The position numbers were made by a program, and so were the translations under genes. A stretch of DNA of 64,000 bases from Sporocytophaga sp. (GTDB taxonomy: Bacteria > Bacteroidota > Bacteroidia > Cytophagales > Cytophagaceae). Below, one piece after another: positions 3,932-8,460 of the stretch (position 1 is the stretch's first letter; the number at the start of each line of letters is the position of its first letter). Where the stretch lies: assembly GCA_024707265.1 (NCBI GenBank), contig JANQAB010000004.1, positions 248,001 to 312,000 of the forward strand. The letters are read 5' to 3'. Below the pieces are notes generated by a model. That model was not told the DNA's origin, did no database searches, and was given only the letters and a program-made list of their open reading frames with translations.

Positions 3932-4180
3932 AGATTTTCAGATGATTTTTTAGATTTTTTAGAGATAAATACTTTCAATCCCGGATTAATGCATTCCGCT
4001 GATATTGCAATCATCCTGGAATATTGCAATTATATGGTATAAATGCTTGAAAAATAATTGATTGTTTTGATTTTTATTGTAAAATGTTTGAAGATATCGA
4101 TGAGTAATTTTAGATTTGTCAATACAGATTTTCAATAAGTTAATAGAATATTATTCTTTACCCTAATCAGGATAAATATT

Positions 4181-4774: not shown

Positions 4775-7015
4775 ATGCTTGTATTTGGAACGCAAATTCA
4801 TATAATTACTTTTTTAATCTCTTTATTTGAGCTGGTTTTCTTTTTTTATCAGATTATATATTTTCTGTCAAGACCATCAGATAAAAGCAGACTGTATTAT
4901 CTGATCCTTCTTTTCCTTTTAATCCAATATAATATTGTCGGAGCAATGTTTCCCGATAACCGAATAGATATTCCAATTGCAATGCAGAATATAGTTGCAT
5001 ATGTAGTTGCCTTATTAATGTCATTATATTTTATTTTTTATATATACAAAGTACTGGATTTGTCGAAAATGAGGTTTTATGCCTTTCAGGGGTCGCTAAT
5101 CTTTATAGTCTTACCATTTATTTTTTTGTTTCTGCTTCCATATGTACATACTGGAGACTTGGAAATGTCAAGGAAACTGGTAGTGGTAATTCCTTTTATA
5201 TATGTTATTGTTATGTTATTTTCTTTAGCAAAATCATTTAGAGAAAAATATCAGTCATGCCGAGATGAGAGTTGTAGGGAAGAAATGATAGGAGTGCTTT
5301 TGGGATTTAGTTTTTGGTTGACACTTCCGGTTATTGCATTTTTTGAAAATGATATAAATGATTTGTTAATACCACTGTTGGACTTTCATAATGGGAGTCA
5401 GGTAGTGGAAGTAATATGTACAAATCTGGGACTTTTCGTGATGACTGTTCTTTTTATCCGCAAATCAATTAAGCAATCGCGGGCAGAATACTATATGTTG
5501 TTAGATTCTCAAAAGATGCTTCAGGAGTTAAATTACACTTTAACATTAAAGGTAATAGAAAGAACAAGGGAACTTGAAATTGCTAATGAAAGAAGAACAA
5601 ATACATTTATTAATCTTGCTCATGAATCCAAAACTCCTATTACACTTATAAGGAATTATCTTGAAGAGTATATAAGCAAACATGGAGCAACAGAAGAACT
5701 AAAAATTATTAGAAGAAGCGTTGAGAAATTAACCAGAGATGTAAATAATTTTTTTGACTTAGAGAAAATCAAGCGTGGAGATGATATTTATTTTAATGAT
5801 CAGATTTGTAATTTCAGTGAGATATTAAATAATAATATAGAGCTTTACAGAGCTTATGCCAATAAGAAAGGTATTTTCCTAACCTCTTATGTGGAAGATA
5901 ACCTGATAGTAAAATCTGATCCGGAAGGTATATACAGGATCATAAATAATATAGTAGAAAATGCGATTAAGTTTACGTCTTTGAATGGCGTAATACAAAT
6001 ATCTCTCAAAAAAAATGGTGAAAGATTGGTATTTGCAGTGAGAGATAATGGTATTGGCATACATTCGGAACTCCATGAAAAGATATTTGAGCCTTATTAT
6101 AAAATAAATTCAAGCCATAAAAACATTCAGGGAATCGGTATCGGTCTTTCAATAGTAAAAAAGATTGTTGAGAGTATTGGTGGAGGGATTAGAATAGAAA
6201 GCGACCCGGTCATGACAGCGGGGACTAATATGATTATAGAAATTCCAATCTGTAGAGGGTACCTGAAGGAACCATTAAGGTTAGAATCAAAAGACATGTA
6301 TTTTAATGTTGATGCGTTAAAAATACCACAAGCCAAGTTTAATGCAGAGAGGCGAAGTGTTTTAGTTGTTGAAGATAATATTGCATTGCTTAATTATCTC
6401 TCAATGAAACTGAGTGAAAAGTTTAATGTAATAGCGGCAACAAGCGGAAATGAAGCATTTAATAGGATGCAGACTGTACCTTACATAGATATTATAATCT
6501 CGGATGTTATGATGAACGATGGAGATGGCTTTGATCTATATAGATTAGTACAGAGCAAGAACCATTTAAATCATATACCTTTTATTTTTCTGACTGCAAG
6601 AGATTCTTTTAAGTCAAAGATGGAAGGGCTTTATTTAGGGGCTGTTGATTATGTACAGAAGCCTTTTCTGGCAGATGAGTTGGTAGCAAAGATTGATTCA
6701 ATTTTGTTGAATCTTGAAAAGCAAAGAATCGCTTTGATAAATAGTGCATATAAAAACCTTCAGAAAGAAAGTGATACAGATGTCATTAAATCAGATAGTC
6801 AGAATAAATTTGAAACTAACTGTCAAAGGTATAACCTTACGACAAGAGAGATAGAAATAATCAATTTGATTGCTAAAGGAGCTACCTATAAAAGTATCGG
6901 AGAGCTTTTATATATATCTGATAAAACTGTTGCGAAACATGTCAGAAATATTTTTGAAAAGGTTGATGTAAAGAAGCAGGTGGAGTTATTAAGTAAACTG
7001 GATGTACCTGCTTAA
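4775..7015 (+). CDS. Membrane hybrid histidine kinase with receiver and C-terminal LuxR-type DNA-binding domain
   Basis: A 746-residue protein with a full two-component pathway in one chain. Residues 1-230 are hydrophobic with about six to seven membrane helices and no large periplasmic domain. Next comes a short coiled linker, then the HisKA domain with the phospho-acceptor His283 in LAHESKTP, and the ATPase domain (N box NNIVENAIKFT, G boxes RDNGIGI and GIGIGLSIV). A receiver domain follows, with the acid pocket VVEDN, phospho-acceptor Asp in IISDVMMNDGDG, and TAR and QKPF motifs. The last 60 residues are a GerE/LuxR helix-turn-helix (LTTREIEIINLIAKGATYKS). This resembles the hybrid two-component sensors of Bacteroidota, but with LuxR instead of AraC output. 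Being tethered by the helices, it would bind DNA at the membrane. Confidence 0.92.
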   Translation: MLVFGTQIHIITFLISLFELVFFFYQIIYFLSRPSDKSRLYYLILLFLLIQYNIVGAMFPDNRIDIPIAMQNIVAYVVALLMSLYFIFYIYKVLDLSKMRFYAFQGSLIFIVLPFIFLFLLPYVHTGDLEMSRKLVVVIPFIYVIVMLFSLAKSFREKYQSCRDESCREEMIGVLLGFSFWLTLPVIAFFENDINDLLIPLLDFHNGSQVVEVICTNLGLFVMTVLFIRKSIKQSRAEYYMLLDSQKMLQELNYTLTLKVIERTRELEIANERRTNTFINLAHESKTPITLIRNYLEEYISKHGATEELKIIRRSVEKLTRDVNNFFDLEKIKRGDDIYFNDQICNFSEILNNNIELYRAYANKKGIFLTSYVEDNLIVKSDPEGIYRIINNIVENAIKFTSLNGVIQISLKKNGERLVFAVRDNGIGIHSELHEKIFEPYYKINSSHKNIQGIGIGLSIVKKIVESIGGGIRIESDPVMTAGTNMIIEIPICRGYLKEPLRLESKDMYFNVDALKIPQAKFNAERRSVLVVEDNIALLNYLSMKLSEKFNVIAATSGNEAFNRMQTVPYIDIIISDVMMNDGDGFDLYRLVQSKNHLNHIPFIFLTARDSFKSKMEGLYLGAVDYVQKPFLADELVAKIDSILLNLEKQRIALINSAYKNLQKESDTDVIKSDSQNKFETNCQRYNLTTREIEIINLIAKGATYKSIGELLYISDKTVAKHVRNIFEKVDVKKQVELLSKLDVPA

Positions 7016-7033
7016 ATAAGGGCTATAAGACAT

Positions 7034-7927
7034 ATGAAATCTGCCCTAAGTGTTTTATTTTTTGTATTGTTATATTCAGCAAATGTGCTAGGTCAACCAT
7101 ATATTGATATAATAAATCTGAAGTATCAAAATTTTCTTCCTGTTAAATATTATGGGGATGATCACAAGCTTAGTGTTGAAGAAAGTTATCTCAGCTTGAA
7201 TATTCCTGTTCCATTAAAGAATAAAGATGTAATACTGACAGGTGGAGTCTTTGATCAGTTGAGTTTTAATTCTGCACATGGAAAAAAAGATCTATATGCA
7301 TTTAATTTTCAATTAGGTTATTTAAAGAATTGGAAGAACACCAAGTGGAAAACATTATTTGTTGTTTTGCCCAAAATCAGTTCTGATCAATTTAAGGTAA
7401 GTAGTGGATCATTTCAACCAGGAGGTATTTTGCTTTTTACGTATGTAAAAAGTGCCAATCTTCAATATAAGTTTGGAGGATATTATAATAAAGAGTTTTT
7501 TGGTAATTTTTATATGCCTTTACTGGGTTTGGAGTGGAAGCCATTGCCAAGGTTAAATATCTTTGGGGTTTTGCCTGGTTACATGATAATAGAATATAAA
7601 GCAACCTCAAAGCTTTATTCGGGGCTTTCCTATCAATGCCTTACTGCCAGCTACAGGCTTCATGATGGAGAAAATTATGCTTTTGTTAGAAATGGTGACA
7701 AATTCTGGGGGCAAATGCAATTAAAGCTTTTCCTCAACTTTTACATAAAAAAATATATAGTTGCATTTGGTGAATTCGGCCATTCCCTTTGCCGGAAATA
7801 TGAGGTATACAACAAAAATAAGGAGAGAATAGCACATCCGGTTTTTAAAAAGACCCATGATGGCTTTATTTTTAATCTGGGACTAGCTTTTAGAATCCGT
7901 CAGGATGGTCCTTCTTTAAAAAAGTAA
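7034..7927 (+). CDS. Outer-membrane beta-barrel-like protein (DUF6268-like)
   Basis: A 297-residue secreted protein with a signal peptide ending at about residue 20 (ANVLGQ). The mature part alternates hydrophobic and polar residues with many aromatic and glycine residues, as expected for a beta-barrel. It recalls the DUF6268 family from memory, with no search done. It starts 18 bases after the hybrid kinase gene and is probably in the same operon, so it may be part of the sensing system or its target. It ends with a hydrophobic strand and a short basic tail (QDGPSLKK), not a T9SS sorting domain. Confidence 0.65.
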   Translation: MKSALSVLFFVLLYSANVLGQPYIDIINLKYQNFLPVKYYGDDHKLSVEESYLSLNIPVPLKNKDVILTGGVFDQLSFNSAHGKKDLYAFNFQLGYLKNWKNTKWKTLFVVLPKISSDQFKVSSGSFQPGGILLFTYVKSANLQYKFGGYYNKEFFGNFYMPLLGLEWKPLPRLNIFGVLPGYMIIEYKATSKLYSGLSYQCLTASYRLHDGENYAFVRNGDKFWGQMQLKLFLNFYIKKYIVAFGEFGHSLCRKYEVYNKNKERIAHPVFKKTHDGFIFNLGLAFRIRQDGPSLKK

Positions 7928-7976
7928 ATTAGTTTTGTAACTTATTGAAAGTTAGCATTGTGTCCTGTTTTGTAAG

Positions 7977-8022
7977 GGAAATACTCTAAAGTAAGTATAG
8001 GAAATACTCTATTTAGAGTATT
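7977..8022. promoter_or_regulatory. Candidate operator: repeated GGAAATACTCTA plus inverted repeat
   Basis: The 12-base word GGAAATACTCTA occurs at 7977-7988 and again at 8000-8011, a spacing of 23 bases or about two helical turns. The second copy is the left arm of an inverted repeat with perfect 9-base arms (AATACTCTA, TT, TAGAGTATT) at 8003-8022. It lies 49 bases upstream of the CheY-like gene. The arrangement suits a dimeric regulator, and the neighbouring hybrid kinase with a LuxR-type domain is an obvious but unproven candidate. There is no T tract, so a terminator is less likely. Confidence 0.5.
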
Positions 8023-8070: not shown

Positions 8071-8460
8071 ATGCAGATTCCAAAATGTATAATGGTAATT
8101 GATAATAATGTTACCGACAACTGGATAGCGGAGCGGATTTTCAAGACTTATAATATTGCATCTGAATATAGGTTTGCTAATAGTGAAAACGCTATTGATA
8201 GTTTGAATGATTATTGTTTGGTCCATGGTAAATTTCCAGACCTGCTTATGGTGGATATCTTATATAACAGGGAAAAAGGTTTTGGATTAATAGACCGAAT
8301 CAGGAATCATTCTGGCTATAGAGAAAATGAGACAAGAATTGCTTTATTGACTTCAGTTGTTGAATACACTTTGAATTATGAAAAGATAGGTCAGCAAAAC
8401 ATTGAACATGTTTTCATAAAGCCTCTGGATATTCAGCAATTGAAGAATATATTTATTTAG
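8071..8460 (+). CDS. Single-domain response regulator (CheY-like)
   Basis: A 129-residue receiver domain with no output domain. The phospho-acceptor is Asp62 in LLMVDILYN, the acidic pocket is IDNNVTDN (one acidic residue fewer than the usual DD pair), and the switch residues are the Thr/Ser of LLTSV and the Lys of FIKPL. ATG 8071 was chosen over an in-frame TTG at 8062. It follows the hybrid kinase/barrel operon after 140 bases containing a candidate operator, and probably receives or drains phosphate from that kinase or another one. Confidence 0.8.
   Translation: MQIPKCIMVIDNNVTDNWIAERIFKTYNIASEYRFANSENAIDSLNDYCLVHGKFPDLLMVDILYNREKGFGLIDRIRNHSGYRENETRIALLTSVVEYTLNYEKIGQQNIEHVFIKPLDIQQLKNIFI

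Follow-up and report, generated by a model that had tools for sequence, protein, structure and literature searches.

A membrane hybrid histidine kinase with a LuxR-type output domain and conserved tandem dyads: a candidate regulator-plus-site module in Sporocytophaga

Introduction

In the hybrid two-component systems (HTCS) of Bacteroides, a membrane sensor, a kinase, a receiver and a DNA-binding domain are combined in one chain, and the DNA-binding domains are tethered within the kinase dimer; their output domain is of the AraC/HTH_18 type, and their targets are polysaccharide genes (PMC11253607). Here we describe a membrane hybrid histidine kinase that instead ends in a GerE/LuxR DNA-binding domain, together with two tandem palindromic sites downstream of it, found in a stretch of 64,000 nucleotides of Sporocytophaga sp. 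(in the following, the window) that belongs to a 6.76-Mb genome (G000) of a Sporocytophaga-like genus of the Cytophagales. As in the HTCS, a single chain holds the membrane sensor, the kinase and the receiver, whereas Pfam gives no AraC-type match at its C-terminus, its sensor has seven segments, and its neighbours are a GNAT acetyltransferase and a single-domain receiver. The AraC-ended HTCS is the closest described architecture, and the window kinase appears to be its LuxR-ended counterpart. No description of a LuxR-ended HTCS equivalent, or of the regulator family discussed below, was found among the titles and abstract openings that searches of an open-access library listed.

Two further systems offer a comparison. 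High-affinity sites of NarL are inverted heptamers with a 2-bp gap (7-2-7) and TAC...GTA edges, e.g., TACCCCTAAAGGGGTA (PMC4549865). Like NarL, the window kinase has a receiver followed by GerE, with the phospho-accepting Asp and the Lys intact, and it is accompanied by conserved dyads of 7-2-7 geometry. However, NarL consists of two domains and is separate from its kinase, while the window protein joins receiver and output to a membrane kinase, and the window sites are tandem dyads with the half-site TACTCTA. In the Bacteroides element CTnDOT, the two-component system of the tetQ-rteA-rteB operon switches on rteC (PMC1976400). The likeness to CTnDOT is one of layout only, in that the kinase is preceded by a GNAT resembling puromycin acetyltransferase and conjugation genes are found next to six of its relatives; RteA and RteB are separate proteins, in contrast to the single fused protein of the window. 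No RteC-family gene was found beside the kinase, as the window neighbour is a receiver, and the proteins behind the kinases of genomes G167 and G755 were not called RteC because they gave no match in Pfam and only one weak, unrelated match in NCBIfam.

Results and Discussion

Domain organisation of the kinase

The initial annotation had proposed that one polypeptide carries a membrane sensor, a kinase, a receiver and a LuxR output, and the open reading frame bears this out (Table 1). HisKA, HATPase_c, Response_reg and GerE follow each other in that order, all above the Pfam gathering cut-offs, and in the preceding residues 1-232 eight hydropathy windows pass, of which the last two overlap, leaving seven hydrophobic segments. 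An AlphaFold model of the kinase (3 sequences) contains seven long helices and one short one, the last running into the linker; at a pLDDT of 57 its confidence is low, and it only suggests a seven-helix sensor. An alignment of 18 kinase sequences, three of them partial, shows no variation at H283, N392, N396, D424, G426, G428, G453, G455, G457, E533, D534, D577 or K629 when only the sequence present is counted and gaps in the partial rows are set aside. The best named match to the kinase was found on a contig of a Sporocytophaga sp. metagenome-assembled genome (86% identity).

Tandem dyads downstream of the kinase

Downstream of the kinase, the 12-base word GGAAATACTCTA had been pointed out as occurring twice, the second time in an exact inverted repeat. 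We find the two copies at 7977-7988 and 8000-8011, 23 bp from start to start, and the second within a 9-2-9 inverted repeat at 8003-8022. The word itself was rejected as the signal, since a genome-wide search, which had been suggested as a check, gave 67 matches with at most one mismatch against 59 for the reversed control. The proposed operator thus stands in a different form: conserved palindromic sites do precede the CheY-like gene, but the unit consists of two tandem 7-2-7 dyads, one imperfect and one perfect, 23 bp apart, and not of a 12-mer direct repeat plus one palindrome.

Both dyads lie ahead of the CheY-like gene in all four genomes of the genus that were compared (G000 to G003), with one tandem in each. 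When 194 genomes of the order were scanned for the tandem with up to two mismatches, seven had a match, namely the four of the genus at this locus and three single matches elsewhere, compared to one for the control. With the spacing lengthened by one base, the genus gave no match, and 4 of 19 genomes gave one match each. Since the tandem exceeds chance and the 12-mer does not, we take the tandem of two dyads to be the signal. A single dyad, TACTCT-N4-AGAGTA with up to one mismatch, occurs 8, 11, 14 and 7 times in G000 to G003 against 17, 18, 16 and 21 times for the control; it is not enriched, and hence nothing points to a wider regulon in the genus.

Recurrence of the dyads beside related kinases

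Downstream of related kinases, this dyad geometry is encountered again in other genera and in other families. In G009 and G010, which represent another genus of the same family (kinase identity 50 and 48%), two tandem 7-2-7 dyads, 22 bp from start to start, are located between the kinase and a CheY-like gene. Their core is TACGG (TACGGTA, compared to TACTCTA in the window), and the same outer frame, AAATAC...GTATTG, surrounds the second dyad. No BLAST similarity was detected between the CheY-like proteins of G009 and G010 and that of the window, indicating that the sites follow the kinase and not one target family. G070, from another family (45%), matches the frame exactly at two places, AAATACTCCTTATAGAGTATTG and AAATACTCCATATGGAGTATTG, both with the window core TACTC and 129 bp apart before a gene of 119 aa. 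In G022, the sister of G070, a pair of TACTC dyads stands before a homologous target (66% identity); they are spaced 130 bp apart, each departs from the frame at two positions, and about 5.7 kb of other genes separate them from the kinase. The second starts 113 bp before the target ATG, and the dyads belong to the best-conserved parts of the gap. G1023 and G921 carry one dyad each, which deviates at one position and begins 67 and 47 bp, respectively, past the stop codon of the kinase. On a plasmid of Tunicatimonas pelagia, an exact frame match on the minus strand, AAATACTTAGCATTAAGTATTG (L124:3387-3408), is found between a helix-turn-helix regulator gene and an operon ending in a kinase relative, about 360 bp before the first gene of that operon and near a conjugation gene.

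The frame had been noted before the held-out loci were read, while the span of 150 bp after the kinase stop was set after the G070 locus had been seen, which is extreme with a 300-bp span as well. Out of 5000 shuffles, the score of the locus was equalled by 0 for G070, 4 for G1023, 2 for G921, 119 for G167 and 99 for G755, and by 795 for G1077, 796 for G022, 2069 for G012, 3208 for G184, 4276 for G204 and 4963 for G738. Other windows of the same locus equalled it in 1 of 250 cases for G070 (a locus that holds a second dyad), 0 of 280 for G1023, 3 of 290 for G921, 3 of 250 for G167 and 5 of 250 for G755. Combined by the Fisher method, the 11 held-out loci give p=4e-7, a sum in which the rows are not all independent, G755/G1077 and G1023/G921 being related pairs and G070/G022 sisters; G066 was outside the test as its contig ends. 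That the repeats arose by chance in AT-rich intergenic DNA is extremely improbable: the 12-mer does lack genome-wide enrichment, but this reading is contradicted by the retention of the repeats in four genomes, by their recurrence in other families, and by the shuffle and within-locus controls.

A self-contained module and the alternatives

Taken together, a regulator-plus-site module, as the initial annotation had suggested, is well supported. It was to be refuted if the kinase gene lacked a nearby repeat in all relatives, and this is not the case: some relatives of the kinase are without a site, and several have dyads nearby. Because the sites recur with one kinase family and their target genes differ, we favour the LuxR domain of the kinase itself as the binder, and it probably reads the tandem dyads and controls the gene behind them, which would make the locus a self-contained membrane regulator-plus-site module. 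A signal at the seven-helix sensor would alter autophosphorylation of H283 in the kinase dimer, and phosphate would move from H283 to D577. The two tethered LuxR domains would thereby be freed to bind one 7-2-7 dyad, one dimer per dyad, and two dyads about two helical turns apart would let two kinase dimers line up next to each other along one face of the DNA. The bound dimers would control the gene just downstream, with the CheY-like single-domain receiver as the working output in the window. Dyad binding by the LuxR domain, the phosphotransfer and the dimer stoichiometry are all steps that we infer from the sequence, and activation is favoured over repression by analogy only. If this holds, LuxR regulators tethered to the membrane and their naturally matched operators, in which two half-site cores occur, would make the DNA-recognition code of the domain directly testable, and would also allow testing how a membrane-bound regulator reaches its operator.

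A number of observations weigh against this reading. Within the genus, a barrel gene stands between the kinase and the dyads, which was not found in the relatives read outside the genus, and the genus alignment shows no conserved promoter between the dyads and the CheY-like gene. Among the 13 loci from outside the genus, G012, G204, G184, G738 and G1077 have no significant site and G022 has none adjacent to the kinase, while the signal in G167 and G755 is weak (p about 0.02). Most of the Fisher sum is carried by three rows, with two weak ones and six that show nothing when taken singly. The Tunicatimonas plasmid locus, which was found later and lies outside that sum, is a downstream miss, there being no site after its kinase. 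Finally, residues of the recognition helix do not track the core, TACTC occurring with both AKHVRN and KTHAQN; a clean correlation between recognition helix and half-site was looked for in the alignment and not found.

The generality of the frame counts on the same side. In 15 genomes, AAATAC-N10-GTATTG gave 136 matches compared to 20 for the control, and 68 compared to 17, own sites included, when G022 and G070 were left out. Given this general excess of the frame in these genomes, other, related regulators probably use similar sites. The dyads could then be genuine LuxR/NarL-type sites read by another LuxR response regulator, with the kinase as a mere neighbour. Candidates for such a regulator are present, as 16 of the 17 strong GerE matches in the genome (8 further matches are weak) are in frames of 144-293 aa, the size of stand-alone response regulators, the kinase being the only one in a long frame. 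Exact frame sites number 31 in G022 and 37 in G070 (control 1 and 2), nearly all of them with cores unlike that of the window. We nevertheless consider this alternative unlikely, given that the same arrangement recurs with the kinase family across families while the targets change, and that the genus shows no enrichment of the core TACTCT-N4-AGAGTA.

Another alternative is a role of the inverted repeats at the RNA level, where they would form a leader hairpin or a terminator separating the kinase operon from the gene that follows. Consistent with this, and again unfavourable to a DNA site, the tandem folds better than shuffles over equal spans in G000 (z of -4.24), G002 (-3.92), G003 (-4.86) and G009 (-8.30), single dyads do so in G070 (-3.32 and -3.04) and G1023 (-2.45), and a stem spanning both dyads keeps 16, 15, 15 and 14 of 19 pairs in the genus. 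However, palindromic DNA sites fold by construction, so energy alone is not decisive, and the fold is not unusual in G001 (-0.69), G010 (-0.92) or G921 (0.07). Measured against G000, none of the pair changes in the other three genomes of the genus is compensated, whether in the long stem or in the dyads, and 9 of 57 cells are broken or unpaired in the long stem, 4 of 27 in dyad 2 and 5 of 27 in dyad 1. Furthermore, the G022 dyads stay with the target gene and not with the end of the kinase, and a terminator scan, which requires three G-C pairs and might overlook a terminator rich in A and T, called none at the site. An RNA element is therefore quite improbable, and recognition of the dyads by the LuxR domain of the kinase remains the reading that we prefer.

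Neighbouring genes and genomic setting

The features of the locus are listed in Table 1. As had been noted initially, the GNAT, kinase and barrel genes are tightly spaced, the gaps between GNAT and kinase and between kinase and barrel being 18 bp each. Among three aligned genomes of the genus, one base differs in the candidate promoter of this operon, which we take to be of the Bacteroidetes -33/-7 type. Upstream of the window GNAT there is no dyad comparable to the operator (best score 10 of 14). The gene behind the dyads had been described as CheY-like, and it does match a receiver, albeit weakly, with 25.2 bits compared to a cut-off of 30.2.

Table 1. Coordinates of the features of the kinase locus in the window.
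Feature	Position	Strand	Basis
Candidate promoter of the GNAT-kinase-barrel operon, TTTG-N20-TAGATTTG	4087..4118	+	Read from sequence; inside well-kept stretch
GNAT acetyltransferase, puromycin N-acetyltransferase-like, 191 aa	4181..4756	+	Pfam Acetyltransf_7, 5.7e-11
Membrane hybrid histidine kinase with LuxR/GerE output, 746 aa	4775..7015	+	Open reading frame, Pfam and alignment
Seven hydrophobic segments (putative sensor), residues 1-232	4775..5470	+	Hydropathy; low-confidence structure model
HisKA, predicted phospho-acceptor H283	5612..5776	+	Pfam residues 280-334; H283 invariant
HATPase_c	5918..6247	+	Pfam residues 382-491
Receiver domain (Response_reg); E533, D534, D577, K629 invariant	6359..6694	+	Pfam residues 529-640; alignment
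GerE/LuxR DNA-binding domain	6833..6991	+	Pfam residues 687-739; 46.1 bits, cut-off 23.5
Barrel-like protein, DUF6268-like, 297 aa	7034..7927	+	21.4 bits, just below cut-off 22.8
Dyad 1, TACTCTA-AA-GTAAGTA, 7-2-7, imperfect	7982..7997	.	Sequence, genus alignment and tandem scan
Dyad 2, TACTCTA-TT-TAGAGTA, 7-2-7, perfect	8005..8020	.	Sequence, genus alignment and tandem scan
CheY-like single-domain receiver, 129 aa, presumed target	8071..8460	+	Response_reg 2e-05; same gene behind dyads in 4 genus genomes

Relatives of the kinase at E<=1e-100 were found in 13 of 390 genomes of the order, in 3 of 395 of the class (the window's own included) and in 4 of 348 in the order of G755, surveys that scored two or three candidates per genome and would miss second copies; the family of G022 has them in 2 of 8. 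At E<=1e-60, the Tunicatimonas plasmid was the only one among 72,556 plasmid records to give a relative, phage records gave none, and six peptide patterns detected none in viral contigs. A GNAT-like gene of the kind seen in the window, as judged by eye from translations in the relatives (Pfam was run on the window GNAT only), is directly upstream of the kinase in 14 of 16 readable loci, ending 1 to 69 bp before it. It is absent in G1023 and G921, and contig ends cut G010 and G012. Upstream of the Tunicatimonas relative is a 397-aa gene without a Pfam family match. Neighbours of the kinase at L069:4873-6081, L074:4393-5586 and L034:2298-3329 (343-402 aa) have a shared-looking C-terminal stretch; Pfam assigns them to no family, and NCBIfam to none convincingly.

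Conjugation genes accompany six relatives: DUF4133 or DUF4134 genes, which we take to be typical of Bacteroidota conjugative transposons, are near the kinase in G022, G070, G167 and G755, a relaxase in G204, and a type IV secretion system coupling protein on the Tunicatimonas plasmid. In the window, no transfer genes were recognised among the listed open reading frames, which were read by eye only. The regulator family is thus repeatedly found beside Bacteroidota conjugation genes, and a possible though rather doubtful extension is a portable cassette, in which the GNAT, the kinase-LuxR fusion and the operator would move together, repeatedly on conjugative elements, with the half-site core and the downstream gene being exchanged and two membrane-anchored kinase dimers pinning the operator to the membrane. 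Bolder still, we may speculate that the GNAT makes or destroys a small molecule read by the sensor. A quorum-sensing function with the GNAT as ligand synthase is disfavoured, the closest solved structure to the window GNAT being a puromycin N-acetyltransferase (7k09, E 1.3e-13), and is kept only as part of that speculation.

Other candidate sites

The exact frame sites of G022 and G070 have cores beginning with CTA in 15 of 31 and 17 of 37 cases, respectively, and those in loci L109-L113 and L115-L117 (e.g., L112:2095-2116 and 2199-2220) are often no more than a few hundred bases before a gene; they may represent a large regulon of another LuxR-type regulator. In G167, the palindromes AAATACTGAAAAATCAGTATTG and AAATACTGAATTATCAGTATTG (L114:2177-2198 and 2633-2654), 456 bp apart, represent a further core variant of the frame. 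In addition, AAATACTTAATTTTRGGTATTG occurs once in each of the four genomes of the genus (e.g., L106:2491-2512 and L107:2263-2284), and in the two loci read it precedes the same long gene (at least 868 aa) by about 110 bp, making this gene a second candidate LuxR target.

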